From an uncultured Eggerthellaceae bacterium (lineage in GTDB: Bacteria > Actinomycetota > Coriobacteriia > Coriobacteriales > Eggerthellaceae), in assembly GCA_903789415.1 (NCBI GenBank), contig CAIFEG010000006.1:1-64000 (forward strand): a stretch of 64,000 bases of DNA, given 5' to 3'. This document shows positions 13,279 to 19,418 of the stretch, one piece after another. The position numbers and the translations under genes were made by a program. The first letter of the stretch is position 1. Each line of letters opens with the position of its first letter. Under the pieces are notes generated by a model that saw only the letters and a list, made by a program, of their open reading frames with translations, was not told the DNA's origin and did not search any database.

Positions 13279-14691
13279 CTAATCTTCCAAGTAATCTTTC
13301 AACTTGCTCGAACGGCTTGGATGGCGCAGCTTTGCAAGGGTCTTGCTTTCAATCTGACGAATACGTTCACGCGTGACGCCGAATTCGCGACCCACTTCTT
13401 CAAGCGTGCGTGGATGACCATCATCCAGACCAAAACGAAGCGTGATTACCTTACGCTCACGTTCTGAAAGGCCATCTAAAACATCACGCAATTGTTCTTG
13501 GAGCATTGCAAAACTTGCCGCATCAGGAGGAACAACCGCTTCTTGATCTTCGATGAAATCACCAAGCTGAGAATCCTCTTCTTCGCCGATTGGCGTTTCC
13601 AAAGAAACAGGTTCTTGGCTGATCTTCTGAATCTCGCGAACGCGCTCTGGTGGAAGATCAAGTTCCTTACCGATTTCTTCTGGCGTAGGTTCACGACCAA
13701 ATTTTTGCAAGAGCGAACGCTGCACGCGTACCAGCTTGTTAATGGTTTCAACCATATGCACTGGAATACGAATCGTACGCGCCTGGTCAGCAATCGCACG
13801 CGTGATTGCCTGTCTAATCCACCAGGTTGCATAGGTGGAAAACTTAAACCCTTTGGTGTAATCGAACTTTTCGACCGCACGGATAAGACCTAAGTTGCCT
13901 TCCTGAATTAAATCCAGGAACAGCATGCCACGACCCACGTAGCGCTTCGCAATGGAAACCACCAGACGAAGGTTCGCTTCAATAAGCTTTTGTTTTGCGT
14001 CAAGACCTACTTGGTCGATACGGTTCAGACGGCGCTTTTCGCGACGGTCTAACTCACGGCCCTCTTCTTTTGCCTTGTCAAGCTCGGCTTCGGCTTTCAC
14101 TCCTGCTTCGATTTTCATGGCAAGATCGATCTCTTGCGAAGCCTTAAGCAGAGGCACTTTGCCGATTTCTTTAAGATACATACGAACCGGGTCGTCGGTT
14201 AAAAGAGCAGTTGAACGATCAGCTGCTGCTGAGGTGCGACGCGATGTCCGTCTACGACGACCACGTGAACTACTCGAGGAAACCTTTGGGAGATCGACCT
14301 TATCAGGAACCTTCAGTTCCTCTTTAGGAATTCCCTCGAGAATTGAATCGGGATCGGTGTCCTCATCCTCGGTGTCGACATCATCCATGTCATCCATGAA
14401 TGAATCGTCAATATCGAGATCATCGGAATTATCGGTAATGTCTTCTTCAGTTTTCTTTGAAGTCTTTTTTGCAGAAGATTTTGTTTTTTTCGCTGTCTTT
14501 GAGGATTTTGACTCACTCTTTGTATTTGTTGATGATTCTGCAGTTTTCGCAGCGCTTTTACGAGTGGTTTTCTTTCCTTTTGTCTGTGTCTTTTTGACAG
14601 CCTTTTGAGCGGTTGAGCTGGCTTTTACCGTTTTCTCTTCGCTCTCTTTTGTTGTTTTTTGTTCCATGCCCTTTTCTGAAGCCTCAGTCAC
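13279..14691 (-). CDS. rpoD: RNA polymerase primary sigma factor (sigma-70/SigA type)
   Basis: Directs core RNA polymerase to housekeeping promoters. Region 1.2 is [17 protein letters not shown]. Regions 2.1-2.4 run from [18 protein letters not shown] through [17 protein letters not shown]. Region 3 contains ETINKLVR, and region 4 has the helix-turn-helix [20 protein letters not shown] and a terminal KLKDYLED. The first ~150 residues are low-complexity: Lys/Thr/Ser-rich, then Asp/Glu-rich. I chose GTG at 14691 because AAAGGAAG precedes it at normal spacing; a longer frame begins at 14706 with another GTG that overlaps this site. Confidence 0.96.
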
Positions 14692-14942
14692 GTAGCTTCC
14701 TTTCACAAAACATCATGTCTGATTTTAGGCGTACTCCCACAGCAAAGTAGTTTAGCAAAAAATGCCCGTGCCCGAATCAAAAAATAAAATTTTACCGGTT
14801 TGACAAGTAAGAATCATATTATTTCCGTTCGGTGCGTCTCATCCTTTCTCTTGCGTTTACTCTGACACATCCCATAGATCTTTTCGCGAGATAGCACAAA
14901 CGTTCTTCCCTAAAAAATCTTCCCTTTACATTTTTGTAAGCA

Positions 14943-14971
14943 TTGACATAGAACATATGTTCCCATACCTT
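14943..14971 (+). promoter_or_regulatory. promoter with LexA-like palindrome for the radical SAM/DUF4130 operon
   Basis: TTGACA (14943-14948), a 17-nt spacer and TACCTT (14966-14971) form a promoter with a strong -35 and a weak -10. The spacer contains the perfect 12-bp palindrome GAACATATGTTC (14951-14962). It matches the core of the Gram-positive SOS box CGAAC-N4-GTTCG. A second, partial copy (ACATATGTTCG) lies at 14981-14991, about 15-25 nt before the chosen start codon. The rest of 14707-14942 should contain the divergent rpoD promoter, which I could not define. Confidence 0.68.
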
Positions 14972-15005
14972 GTAAGTAATACATATGTTCGATAAAGGAA
15001 TGCTC

Positions 15006-16451
15006 ATGGACGTCGCGGATAAACTGGAAATACTTGCTGATGCCGCAAAATACGACGTTGCGTGTACCTCTTCTGGCATAGACCGTTCGGCACAAAAAGG
15101 ATGTCTTGGCTCGACGGTCGCTGCGGGATGCTGCCATTCTTGGACGCCTGATGGACGCTGCATCTCCTTGCTTAAAGTCTTAATGACCAATGTGTGCGAA
15201 TATGACTGCGCATACTGTGTGAACCGAATCTCAAATGACCATGTTCGCCGCACCGCATTTACTCCCCAGGAACTTGCTGACCTCACTATGGGAATGTATC
15301 GTCGCAATTACATTGAAGGGTTATTTCTATCGAGCGCGGTGCTGAAAACTCCAGACTATACGTGCGAACGCATGATTGAAACCTTTCGGATTCTTCGAGA
15401 TTCATATCACTTTTGTGGATACATCCATGCCAAGATCATTCCAGGGACTTCCCCAGATCTTATTGACAAAATTGGGCGATATGCAGACCGGGTCAGCGTC
15501 AATCTGGAGATGCCCAGCCAACAGAGTTTAAAATTGCTCGCTCCAAGTAAAACAAAAACCAGCGTGCTCGGACCCATGAAATACATTCATCAAGAAATTG
15601 ATATTGATAAGACCAAAAGACTTGCAGCACACAATAGTCGTTCAACCCTATACGTATCAAAAAGAGGATCAAAGAGTATGGCGCCTTCTAGAAAACGTGC
15701 GTTTGCCCCCGCTGGGCAGAGCACACAGATGATTATTGGCGCCTCTCCCGAAAGCGATTACCAAATTCTCAATATCTCTTCGGCACTCTATAAACAATAC
15801 AAATTAAAACGCGTATTTTTTAGCGCATATATCCCCGTGGTGAAAGATCCGCGCTTACCTCAGAGTGCTCATATCCAACTCGATCGTGAACATAGGCTCT
15901 TTCAAGCTGATTGGCTTATGCGTTTTTACGGATTTGATGTCAACGAAATCGTTGATGCAAACCACCCCTTTTTAGATACACAGCTAGATCCCAAGGCACA
16001 ATGGGCAATACATCATCTTGATTTATTTCCAATTGAAATCAATACTGCATCCTACCAAATGTTGCTGCGTGTACCAGGAATTGGTGTGCGCGGTGCACAA
16101 CGAATTATCAAAGCAAGAAAAACGCGACGTCTTTCGAGTGATGACGTTGCGCGCATCGGAATTGCCTATAAGCGAGCACGGTATTTTATTACGTGCTGCG
16201 GAAATTATGTGGCTGGGGGAATCGATTTTTCTTCTGAAACCCTTCGAAGTATTCTTTCTGCTCCTATTGATGGCGGGCACCATGGACGCCGTGCCGCACG
16301 ACCAATCCCCGGTCAGCAGTCATTATTTGATGATGCAGCCTCACCCATCTCTGTGAATCCTGTTAAAAGTCAAAAGGAGCTTCCGCAGACTCCACGCACA
16401 AGTCTCACTCTCCCAAATAACTCTGAAAGTCGACATGCGGAACGGCGATGA
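15006..16451 (+). CDS. radical SAM protein of the DNA modification/repair-associated family (partner of DUF4130)
   Basis: Matches the radical SAM family annotated as putative DNA modification/repair protein (TIGR03916). The CxxxCxxC cluster motif is C64/C68/C71 in VCEYDCAYC. The N-terminus LEILADAAKYDVACTSSG is family-typical. A helix-hairpin-helix DNA-binding element (LLRVPGIGVRGAQRIIKAR) lies near residue 350. The last ~60 residues are polar. I chose ATG at 15006 because AAAGGA lies 7 nt upstream; the in-frame ATG at 14985 overlaps the second LexA-like half site. The next gene starts 3 nt after the stop and encodes the usual partner. The substrate is not known to me. Confidence 0.86.
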   Translation: MDVADKLEILADAAKYDVACTSSGIDRSAQKGCLGSTVAAGCCHSWTPDGRCISLLKVLMTNVCEYDCAYCVNRISNDHVRRTAFTPQELADLTMGMYRRNYIEGLFLSSAVLKTPDYTCERMIETFRILRDSYHFCGYIHAKIIPGTSPDLIDKIGRYADRVSVNLEMPSQQSLKLLAPSKTKTSVLGPMKYIHQEIDIDKTKRLAAHNSRSTLYVSKRGSKSMAPSRKRAFAPAGQSTQMIIGASPESDYQILNISSALYKQYKLKRVFFSAYIPVVKDPRLPQSAHIQLDREHRLFQADWLMRFYGFDVNEIVDANHPFLDTQLDPKAQWAIHHLDLFPIEINTASYQMLLRVPGIGVRGAQRIIKARKTRRLSSDDVARIGIAYKRARYFITCCGNYVAGGIDFSSETLRSILSAPIDGGHHGRRAARPIPGQQSLFDDAASPISVNPVKSQKELPQTPRTSLTLPNNSESRHAERR

Positions 16452-16454
16452 AAT

Positions 16455-17345
16455 ATGAGACGCAATACCGCCACCTCAGAAAAAATTGAGAAATATCCAG
16501 CGATCTCCGCTGCAGAACCACAAGACCCGGTGCTTTTTACGTATGACGGTTCAGCTGAAGGAATCATGACATGCGTGTTTTATTCCTATGCGCACCGTAT
16601 CATTCCCATCGATATTCAGAGAAAAGACCTTGTACAGTCTCGTCTCGATCAAGCCATCATTGATGTGCAAACTCAAATAGACCAAGCACTTCGTGTACGC
16701 AAAGGAATTTTGAGATGTGGCGGGAAAGAGGTATGGAAGAAAAGTTTATATACTGCTTCCGCTGACGATCCGCGCGCTGCGTACGCATGCTTTATTTTTC
16801 TTCGGGAGCTTTTCGATCATACAGCCGCAGCATGCAAACACTGCAAAAAGAAAATGACCTGTACCAAACCGTGCCCGCGCAATAGAGGACCTCACATTCT
16901 TGATGAATGGTCAAATCCCCACGTCAGGGATGCGCTCCGCATTGCCCGCAGCGTCACAATTGAAATCAATCGTATGCATGAACTCATGCGATTTTCCCAT
17001 TTAGCATCCGATATTTGGTTTGCCAAATGCAATCCAAATGCCGATGTTGTCCCCTTTTTGATGAACTGGTTTACGCCGCGCTTTAACACTCAGAAATTTC
17101 TCATATGGGACGAGGTGCATCACGTCGCGGGGCTTTCGGAAAATGGTATGGCGCATGTGGTGAAAGTTGATGATATCGATGCACTTATTTCCCAGGTTCC
17201 CTCAAAAGAAGAGGCAGCAATGGAAGATGCCTGGCAACGTTTTTATCACGCTGTTGCAATAGACGAGCGCTACCATCCAGAACTTCGAGGCCATTTTATG
17301 CCAATGCGATTATGGAAAAACATCACCGAAATGCAAGATGATTAA
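16455..17345 (+). CDS. DUF4130 protein, putative DNA-metabolism partner
   Basis: A 296-residue protein of the DUF4130/TIGR03915 family, normally encoded beside the preceding radical SAM protein and, in many bacteria, fused to a uracil-DNA-glycosylase-like domain. That fusion is absent here. The family core VLFTYDGSAEGIMTCVFYSY begins near residue 26. Later motifs are HELMRFSHLASDIWFAKCNP and the conserved DEVHHVAG region. An insert has a CKHCKKKMTCTKPC cluster near 137 that could bind zinc. Its start (16455) follows the upstream stop by 3 nt, so the two genes are co-transcribed. Its stop codon lies in the first unit of the 15-bp repeat. Confidence 0.85.
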   Translation: MRRNTATSEKIEKYPAISAAEPQDPVLFTYDGSAEGIMTCVFYSYAHRIIPIDIQRKDLVQSRLDQAIIDVQTQIDQALRVRKGILRCGGKEVWKKSLYTASADDPRAAYACFIFLRELFDHTAAACKHCKKKMTCTKPCPRNRGPHILDEWSNPHVRDALRIARSVTIEINRMHELMRFSHLASDIWFAKCNPNADVVPFLMNWFTPRFNTQKFLIWDEVHHVAGLSENGMAHVVKVDDIDALISQVPSKEEAAMEDAWQRFYHAVAIDERYHPELRGHFMPMRLWKNITEMQDD

Positions 17346-17470
17346 ATGCGTGGGCATTAACGGCGTGGGTATTAACGGCTTAGACATTAAAGACATGAAT
17401 ATTGACGGCTTGGGCATTAACGGCGTGGGTATTAACGGCTTAGACATTAAGAGCGCAAACATTAATTCTT
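17336..17470. repeat. 15-bp tandem repeat (9 units) holding the stop codons of two convergent genes
   Basis: Nine consecutive 15-bp units share the core ATTAA (ATTGA in one), for example TGGGCATTAACGGCG. A 40-bp block at 17351-17390 is repeated exactly at 17411-17450. The first unit contains the stop codon of the plus-strand DUF4130 gene (TAA, 17343-17345). The last contains the stop of the minus-strand gene (17462-17464). Because the period is a multiple of three, nearly every unit carries a further stop codon in the frame of each gene. Confidence 0.9.
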
Positions 17471-18430
17471 ATCTGGAAGTACGCCTGTACAGTCAAATGA
17501 GGGAATAAAGCTCTCACTTGCGGTGCCACCTTGTTGCCAAAAGTAATCTTCGATTCCCAGATTATCCATATAATCAAGAAGCGTATTGTATTCTTCATCA
17601 GATACCGTACGAGACAACTCCGGGGTTGTCTTGAATTGCTTCATAGGTGTGTATTGATTCATGACCGAATACAGTACATGGGTGTGATAACGCTCCCATA
17701 AAAATTTCATGATGTACTGCGATTCCCTTACCCGACCAGGTAAAATAAGATGCCGAACGACGACCCCACGAATAAGACGTCGCTCACCGCAGAATTTATC
17801 GTAGACAGGATCTCCCGTTTGCTGAACCATGTGATCAAGCGCTGCGGTGGCAACATCAAAATAGTCAGGAGCATGCGAATAAAGCCGCGCCGCATCACTG
17901 CCCGAAGACACATCTGTTTCACCAATATGCGCGGGACCATCTTTCCAATACTTAAAATCGGTGAGATAGACACCCACGTAATCCTTAAGGCCATCGATCG
18001 CTTCGGTTGTCTCATATCCAGACGTGTTATAGACGGCAGGCACCACAAGACCACGCGTGCGCGCATCTCGAAGGGCAACTTTTACTTGAGGCGCGTAATG
18101 ACATGCGGTCACTAAATTAATATTTGCCGCACCCTTCTTTTGAAGTTCAAGAAAAATATCCGAGAGACGATCAATGGAAATGTCAATTCCATGCATGCCC
18201 TGAGCAATGTCGGAATTTTGACAATAGACGCAATGAAGGGGGCAGTTGCTAAAGAAAACTGCTCCGCTCCCTGCACCAACGCTGATAACCGGTTCTTCCC
18301 AAAAATGAAGTGCGGCGCGAGCGACGCGAAGTTCATCTGCTGCGCCGCATACGCCACGCTGTCCTGCGGCACGATTCGCTCCACATGCACGCGGGCACAG
18401 ATTACACTTAGTTGGAAGGGAAACTTCCAA
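17462..18430 (-). CDS. radical SAM protein, PflX/PflA-activase-like (COG1313)
   Basis: Resembles the PflX-like group of radical SAM proteins. From a TTG start at 18430 it has 322 residues. The N-terminal Cys set is CNLCPRACG plus C28, and the cluster motif CPLHCVYC gives C63/C67/C70. Downstream are FKYWKDG and VVRHLILPGRV. TTG at 18430 is preferred because GGGGGAA lies just upstream, giving a 23-bp overlap with the preceding gene. ATG at 18475 is a possible alternative. The overlap with the dehydrogenase-like gene suggests translational coupling. The protein activated, if any, is unknown. Confidence 0.8.
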   Translation of the reverse strand: MEVSLPTKCNLCPRACGANRAAGQRGVCGAADELRVARAALHFWEEPVISVGAGSGAVFFSNCPLHCVYCQNSDIAQGMHGIDISIDRLSDIFLELQKKGAANINLVTACHYAPQVKVALRDARTRGLVVPAVYNTSGYETTEAIDGLKDYVGVYLTDFKYWKDGPAHIGETDVSSGSDAARLYSHAPDYFDVATAALDHMVQQTGDPVYDKFCGERRLIRGVVVRHLILPGRVRESQYIMKFLWERYHTHVLYSVMNQYTPMKQFKTTPELSRTVSDEEYNTLLDYMDNLGIEDYFWQQGGTASESFIPSFDCTGVLPDKN

Positions 18431-19418
18431 TCGTTCCCCCGAACGAGTCACCTTGTGTTCCGAAGTTGAATCCATCTTCACCTTCGTCGTCTTCACTATC
18501 GTCATCTTCTTCACTGCTCGCGTTGCCAAGAATACGAGCAGCTTCTTCCGCACGGCCCCAATCAAGGCCATATTTGGTGCAGGTTTCTTCATCGGTATAG
18601 ATAAGGCCTAACGCCACAGGATTCATATCGACACCACCGATGATAGAGACCATCCGCAGCAAATACTGTGCCGCTTCTGCTTGCGGAAGTACCAGGTGTT
18701 CATCTTGAGCATAGGCATAGGCAGCATGCATTTCTGCCGCCATGATCTCTACCGTATACGTACCACCAAATTGATGGTCACGCAGTGCCGCATGCAGTTT
18801 ATTTGCGTTATCCGGCATAAGCCCTGCTAAAACCATACGATTGACCATGGCATCCACAGGTTTTGAGTCTTTGTCGTCTCGATAAAGCATTTGCGATTCA
18901 ATAAGAGTGACCAGGCTTTGTGCCTGTGCAAGAGAAAATGCCGCCTTGGCTTTTTGGCCTGCCCCTGCATCCCCGCAATAGGCAGTTTTTCCCGCAAATG
19001 CAAACAGAATATCTTTGCAAGCGGAAAAGTCATCTTTGTTTCCCGCTGCAAGCGCAATTAAATTATCGGGGTCTTCAAATGCATCTTCTGCCGTAATATC
19101 TCGTACGAACAAAGGCGCATCAAGCGCATGCAAATTTGACACTTGCGCCATCGCGGAAATCTCTTGTGCAAAGGTCGGAATAGACGGGCTGCAGTCAATG
19201 ACATATGACCCTTTTTTCATGGATGTCACAAGTCCGTTATCGCCAAAATATACGTTCGTAAGGTTATCCTCATCCAGGCAATAGGTAATCGCGAAATCTG
19301 CATCTTCATGTTTAGAGACAAGGTCGAACCCTGCCGTCATCACATTGTGCGAAATGGTACGTATGACGCTTTCTTTATCCCCAATTACCGCAACTTTTTT
19401 ACCTGTATTTTCAGACAT
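18408..19418 (-). CDS. 3-hydroxyisobutyrate dehydrogenase-like protein, probably degenerate
   Basis: A 336-residue protein with the overall plan of the beta-hydroxyacid dehydrogenase superfamily: a Rossmann domain, the GDAGAGQKAK region containing the usual catalytic Lys, and a helical C-terminal domain. Several hallmarks are missing. The dinucleotide loop reads VIGDKESV instead of GxGxxG. The DAPVSGG-type element reads DAPLFVRD. The Asn pair after the catalytic Lys is absent. The C-terminus is an acidic run followed by a Gly/Phe/Ser-rich tail. It may be a non-catalytic or altered enzyme. It overlaps the PflX-like gene and is downstream of the DegV genes. Confidence 0.65.
   Translation of the reverse strand: MSENTGKKVAVIGDKESVIRTISHNVMTAGFDLVSKHEDADFAITYCLDEDNLTNVYFGDNGLVTSMKKGSYVIDCSPSIPTFAQEISAMAQVSNLHALDAPLFVRDITAEDAFEDPDNLIALAAGNKDDFSACKDILFAFAGKTAYCGDAGAGQKAKAAFSLAQAQSLVTLIESQMLYRDDKDSKPVDAMVNRMVLAGLMPDNANKLHAALRDHQFGGTYTVEIMAAEMHAAYAYAQDEHLVLPQAEAAQYLLRMVSIIGGVDMNPVALGLIYTDEETCTKYGLDWGRAEEAARILGNASSEEDDDSEDDEGEDGFNFGTQGDSFGGTIGSFPSN

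Follow-up and report, generated by a model that had tools for sequence, protein, structure and literature searches.

A two-gene operon encoding a radical-SAM protein and a DUF4130 protein, found in a 64,000-nucleotide stretch of genomic DNA from an uncultured Eggerthellaceae bacterium (the window), is on balance probably a damage-induced SOS repair unit in which a clamp-recruited radical-SAM enzyme works together with its DUF4130 partner. This reading draws on putative LexA operators in front of the pair, their conservation among orthologous promoters, the domain content of the two proteins, and a peptide motif in the tail of the first, each of which is supported by tested sequence evidence.

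LexA-type operators and their conservation

A preliminary description of this DNA had reported a perfect palindrome between the -35 and -10 boxes of the promoter and a second, half-matching site ahead of the start codon, and both were recovered (Table 1). The perfect copy begins right behind the -35 hexamer and precedes a weak candidate -10 hexamer, and the imperfect copy follows at a spacing of 28 bp. The likely start codon is the ATG at 15006 rather than the start of the longest open reading frame at 14985, which places both boxes upstream of the radical-SAM gene. A consensus promoter scanner reported no promoter at 14943-14971, where the -10 box is weak. In a search with a weight matrix derived from the LexA boxes of 30 lexA loci in the taxonomic family to which the window belongs, the two predicted operators were the best two matches within the 64-kb window, the next best scoring 12.3 bits. 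Counts of the exact 12-mer were dropped as operator evidence, since exact GAACN4GTTC occurs at 25 sites genome-wide against 43 for a reversed control pattern, which makes its bare occurrence uninformative; the position of the predicted operators, unlike the mere occurrence of the pattern, is beyond chance.

Table 1. Features of the operon and its promoter, in window coordinates
Feature	Position	Strand	Evidence or remark
-35 hexamer TTGACA, perfect	14943-14948	+	sequence
LexA operator 1 (predicted), GAACATATGTTC, perfect palindrome	14951-14962	+	sequence; LexA matrix 18.5 bits
Candidate -10 hexamer TACCTT, weak (3/6)	14966-14971	+	17-nt spacing
LexA operator 2 (predicted), ATACATATGTTC, imperfect	14979-14990	+	LexA matrix 14.6 bits
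Shine-Dalgarno-like AAAGGA	14994-14999	+	sequence
Radical-SAM protein, TIGR03916 / rSAM_link_UDG, 481 aa	15006-16451	+	592 bits; longest ORF from 14985
Span with conserved C20, C43, H44, C52	15063-15161	+	C20 at 15063, C52 at 15159
CX3CX2C radical-SAM cluster motif (C64, C68, C71)	15195-15218	+	invariant, 58/58
Helix-hairpin-helix	16032-16124	+	HHH_3 E=2.1e-6, residues 350-380 counted from 14985
QQSLF, clamp-binding-type peptide in disordered tail	16314-16328	+	family consensus QLSLF
DUF4130 protein, TIGR03915, 296 aa, without glycosylase domain	16455-17345	+	153 bits

Our genome-wide searches covered a 1.88-Mb draft genome, in which a LexA was found (1.2e-20) and RecA is encoded, and the same palindrome precedes both genes. 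The lexA promoter carries three copies, two of them exact and the third nearly so (GAACCTTTGTTC, GAACAAACGTTC, and AAACATTTGTTC, with 28 bp between neighbors). In the recA promoter, TTGACA is followed by the box TTGACATACAAACATTTGTTCGTATAAT, with one mismatch, and then by TATAAT, so that the box lies between the -35 and -10 hexamers, as it does in the window promoter. An exact copy of the operator 1 palindrome is also found close upstream of the gene for a Y-family polymerase (L028:6602-7948). The box GAACATTTGTTC lies 74 bp upstream of the dprA homolog (L011:1575-2453), and a LexA-type box this close may make dprA a member of the SOS regulon.

Among the 138 genomes of the taxonomic family of the window, LexA is found in 126 and TIGR03916 in 96; Caulobacter is listed with a TIGR03916 match among the control genomes. 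At the 30 lexA loci inspected, most of the readable cases have GAACCTTTGTTC, GAACAAAGGTTC, and AAACATTTGTTC about 28 bp apart, the spacing also seen between the two window operators. The expectation that orthologous pairs would share the box was borne out: in the 145 bp that surround and precede the radical-SAM gene start, with the orientation of each locus fixed from the protein motif, a box with at most one mismatch was found in 77 of 81 family promoters (169 boxes in total), a count taken over related loci that are not independent observations. Control dyads of the same composition were found at 1 to 12 of the 81 loci, except for ACGAN4TCGT (37/81), a dyad overlapping the flanks CGAAC..TTCG. 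The 4-bp spacer stands out, as other spacer lengths occur at only 1 to 17 of the 81 loci. In a farther-upstream control stretch, 455 to 600 bp upstream of the cluster motif, a box was present at 2 of 77 loci; in a coding stretch inside the gene, GAACN4GTTC with one mismatch was present at 28 of 81, above the other dyads. Exact boxes occur in only 6 of the 81 family radical-SAM promoters, and because most copies carry one mismatch, repression may be partial. Most of these promoters (loci L035-L064 and L135-L189) contain more than one imperfect copy, frequently at spacings of 16 or 25 bp; in the lexA promoters, by contrast, most boxes are exact and the spacing is about 28 bp. This difference may set the timing of induction.

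Outside the family, exact GAACN7GAAC or GTTCN7GTTC occurs near the start at all seven alphaproteobacterial loci, and the Pedobacter locus (L116) carries an exact CTAAN5TTAG; these are the lineage-specific motifs defined for alphaproteobacterial LexA and for the SOS response of Bacteroidetes, respectively (PMC8565304). The sampled Clostridia have AAACATTTGTTT-like boxes at most loci. Sampling of more distant Actinomycetota (L065-L070, L078-L086) turned up no box. The earlier placement of the operon in the DNA damage response is thus supported by LexA and RecA in the genome, by the boxes ahead of their genes, and by the 77 of 81 orthologous promoters. From these sequence data, LexA/SOS control of the radical-SAM/DUF4130 pair appears very likely, and the pair would very probably be switched on by DNA damage via LexA.

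The radical-SAM protein and its tail

The assignment of the first protein to the radical-SAM family, with a helix-hairpin-helix, and of the second to DUF4130 was upheld by profile matches (Table 1). The score of the radical-SAM protein against TIGR03916 (model positions 2-393 of 415, nearly the whole model) exceeds the curated cut-off of 343.5 bits, Pfam finds Radical_SAM and HHH_3 in it, and its best named relative, a protein of Anaerotardibacter muris, shares 65 percent identity with it. H141 and the RxPGxG of the helix-hairpin-helix are invariant, and the latter domain is presumed to make non-specific contact with DNA. Four further residues are highly conserved in alignment A1 of 58 sequences (C20 in 56, C43 and H44 in 53 each, and C52 in 55) and could form an additional metal site. 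The top PDB matches of a fold search were HydE, PFL-activase, and LIAS, at low TM, which describes a general radical-SAM barrel; the search singled out no DNA-repair radical-SAM enzyme, and SplB was absent among the best 50 fold matches listed. A search for solved relatives with the single sequence found none, and with an alignment there were only weak matches, to ComEA-type helix-hairpin-helix proteins, HydG, and EEPD1.

Past the helix-hairpin-helix, the tail is poorly conserved and disordered (pLDDT below 50 at residues 423-481), and it is here that the clamp-binding-type peptide is found. The consensus for binding to the bacterial clamp is QL[S/D]LF (PMC3716654, PMC9690074), from which the window variant differs by Q in place of L at position 2. 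We compared 139 tails from Coriobacteria, Actinomycetota, Clostridia, Bacteroidota, Planctomycetota, and Proteobacteria: a QLSLF-type peptide (relaxed pattern) is present in 133 and missing from 6, against an average of 1.35 and a maximum of 5 in shuffled tails, and the strict form Q[LM]x[LM]F is present in 109, against 0.16 expected and none in the protein bodies of the same 139 sequences. The clamp-dependent polymerases UmuC (QLNLF) and Pol II (QLGLF) have a QxxLF-type peptide in common with the radical-SAM protein (PMC3716654), and UmuC is also SOS induced, like the predicted control of the pair, although these two are polymerases. Given these motif counts, the tail quite likely binds the sliding clamp DnaN. 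The preliminary description had suggested that the helix-hairpin-helix supplies the contact with DNA; the C-terminal motif, which it did not foresee, would offer a second route. Our literature search for a clamp-binding motif together with radical SAM found no relevant paper among those listed, and no description of such a link for this protein was found in the library searched. A clamp-docking tag so widely conserved makes the chemistry of the radical-SAM protein easier to test. Many of the orthologs (L065-L070, L078-L080, L096-L123) have a second conserved tail past the clamp motif, [ST]A[LS][ST]GE[LIV] or KGEL, which is possibly a docking site.

The DUF4130 partner and known SOS-controlled relatives

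The two genes are separated by 3 bp, and the product of the second matches TIGR03915 (152.9 bits, cut-off 112.25) and Pfam DUF4130 (115.6 bits, cut-off 27; 2.6e-33). It had been noted to lack the glycosylase fusion seen in other species, and indeed the Pfam search gave no match to the UDG domain PF03167 in either protein of the pair. UDG is fused to DUF4130 in Alphaproteobacteria and Planctomycetes; two alphaproteobacterial partners put through the same test consist of DUF4130 plus UDG and have the KRRIH loop, the mark of UdgX, which bonds covalently to abasic DNA (PMC10359453). The clostridial DUF4130 protein tested has no UDG domain, the Bacteroidota partners are DUF4130-only at 6 of 6 loci, and only 9 of the 55 members of the DUF4130 alignment match UDG. 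The genome contains just two other UDG-superfamily genes, and the KRRIH loop is absent from the translations of both. As SOS-type boxes are kept where UDG is lacking (in the window family, in Clostridia, and in Pedobacter), the radical-SAM and DUF4130 genes look like the regulated core, with a UdgX-type glycosylase outside it. No description of SOS control independent of the glycosylase was found in the literature searched.

The structure model of the DUF4130 protein is confident (mean pLDDT 88), and its best matches in two structure libraries were DHH phosphoesterases (PAP phosphatase, 4.4e-4, and phage DHH proteins), and it also resembles RecJ and Cdc45; the TM of the DHH matches does not exceed about 0.35. 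Two of the DHH proteins encoded in the genome gave nothing in a profile comparison, and members of the DUF4130 alignment matched no DHH family. With TM values this low and no support from sequence, identification as a DHH phosphoesterase was rejected and serves only as a lead.

That the family is under SOS control has already been reported or predicted for other phyla and is not new, a point that the first examination of the operon had not anticipated. In Clostridium acetobutylicum, which belongs to a different phylum, the radical-SAM/unknown pair CAC3343-CAC3344 has a predicted LexA box and, with expression data, was placed in the LexA regulon beside lexA, recA, and uvrB; the available excerpt of that account does not mention a clamp motif (PMC3828012). 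We infer that the second gene of this pair encodes DUF4130. COG1573-COG4277 operons were reported to be under predicted SOS control in Bacteroidetes, Verrucomicrobia, and Alphaproteobacteria and were interpreted as a UDG-based repair system (PMC8565304). They are SOS-controlled two-gene units like the window pair; however, neither the window pair nor any of the six Bacteroidota loci checked has a UDG domain. We take COG4277 to be the same helix-hairpin-helix radical-SAM family as the window protein, and the DUF4130 portion of fused proteins may be what was assigned to COG1573 in Bacteroidetes. The UdgX-DUF4130 fusions, presumably of the TIGR03914 type, have the same DUF4130 and radical-SAM partner as the window operon, whose DUF4130 protein, unlike the fusions, has neither a glycosylase domain nor a KRRIH loop. 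DUF4130 was tied to SOS neighborhoods in 2013 (PMC3765255), and the NCBI label of the radical-SAM family is "DNA modification/repair." In the literature searched, we found no chemical assignment for the pair, no mitomycin or cisplatin phenotype of such a radical-SAM protein, and no SOS control of the family in Coriobacteriia. What adds interest beyond the known SOS control is the clamp motif, together with the apparent independence of the pair from the glycosylase, and our results call into question the UDG-based reading of the operon.

Proposed mechanism and alternative readings

In an undamaged cell, LexA would sit on the two operators, over and just past the promoter, and keep the pair off; upon damage, RecA would trigger self-cleavage of LexA, and both proteins would be made. 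The QxxLF tail would bind DnaN and bring the radical-SAM protein to DNA under copying or repair, the helix-hairpin-helix would touch the DNA, and the [4Fe-4S] cluster with SAM would generate a 5'-deoxyadenosyl radical for attack on the damaged nucleotide. DUF4130 would be the partner, perhaps as the subunit that binds DNA or the lesion, and the UdgX-type glycosylase fused to it in some phyla would add uracil or abasic-site handling outside the core. LexA repression, damage induction, clamp binding, and radical chemistry on DNA are the steps that we infer. There is good reason to expect that the pair acts on a DNA lesion; for the fuller picture, in which a widespread, damage-induced radical-SAM repair enzyme rides the sliding clamp and acts with DUF4130 on a replication or gap-repair lesion, we put the chances at about even. 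SOS control, the clamp tag, and glycosylase independence narrow the search for the substrate, which would be expected to be a DNA lesion encountered by the replication or repair machinery and not simply uracil. The host bacteria are probably anaerobes, in which radical-SAM repair would be practical.

The main rival to this mechanism links the pair to UdgX and to uracil or abasic sites: an SOS-regulated uracil base-excision system in which the glycosylase comes from another gene and the radical-SAM protein handles uracil-derived or abasic intermediates. The DUF4130-UDG fusions of Alphaproteobacteria and Planctomycetes, the UdgX signature at two alphaproteobacterial loci, the covalent bond of UdgX to abasic DNA (PMC10359453), and the published view of COG1573-COG4277 as UDG-based repair (PMC8565304) all speak for it. 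We nevertheless consider it unlikely, as UDG is absent from the window operon, from the clostridial protein tested, and from 6 of 6 Bacteroidota loci, yet SOS-type boxes remain in the window family, in Clostridia, and in Pedobacter, and neither of the only two other UDG-superfamily genes of the genome has KRRIH. Induced modification of DNA or nucleotides rather than repair, for example a protective or mutagenic base modification, is quite unlikely: radical-SAM enzymes often modify nucleic acids, the NCBI label names modification alongside repair, and Aravind and coworkers proposed a thymine modification (PMC3765255), but damage-type control in several phyla and the clamp tag suit repair or tolerance better, and the operon has no methyltransferase or restriction partner.

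The same family has also been labeled "SplB-like" (PMC3765255), and an enzyme of the spore photoproduct lyase kind, acting by direct reversal of a UV thymine lesion, would share with the window protein a radical-SAM core, a DNA-binding element, and a link to DNA damage, splB being likewise under SOS regulation (PMC8565304). SplB and the window protein have no significant sequence match, SplB is missing from the 50 fold matches listed, and the window protein, set against SplB, has a helix-hairpin-helix and a clamp-type tail. The close relatives of the host are gut anaerobes, for which UV exposure is rare, and this too counts against an SplB-like activity, which we regard as decidedly improbable. 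Least probable by far is that the boxes serve not the radical-SAM pair but the sigma-factor gene rpoD, which lies divergent to it (13279-14706, minus strand); some 300 bp of intergenic DNA are common to rpoD and the pair. An rpoD-like upstream neighbor is found at only 2 of 82 family loci, the window included, set against boxes at 77 of 81, which ties the boxes to the radical-SAM gene; the -35 hexamer and both boxes are, moreover, oriented and spaced for a plus-strand gene. Regulation of rpoD by the boxes was rejected on the count of neighbors.

Beyond the radical-SAM/DUF4130 operon, a tandem repeat with a 30-bp unit (VGINGVGINGLDIKDMNIDGLGINGVGINGLDIK..., 3.3 copies, 17351-17450) begins immediately past the DUF4130 stop codon and has one frame open. 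It is followed by a gene for a further radical-SAM protein, of a different type (17462-18592, minus strand), convergent to the operon, whose Radical_SAM match of 26.7 bits lies just below the Pfam cut-off.
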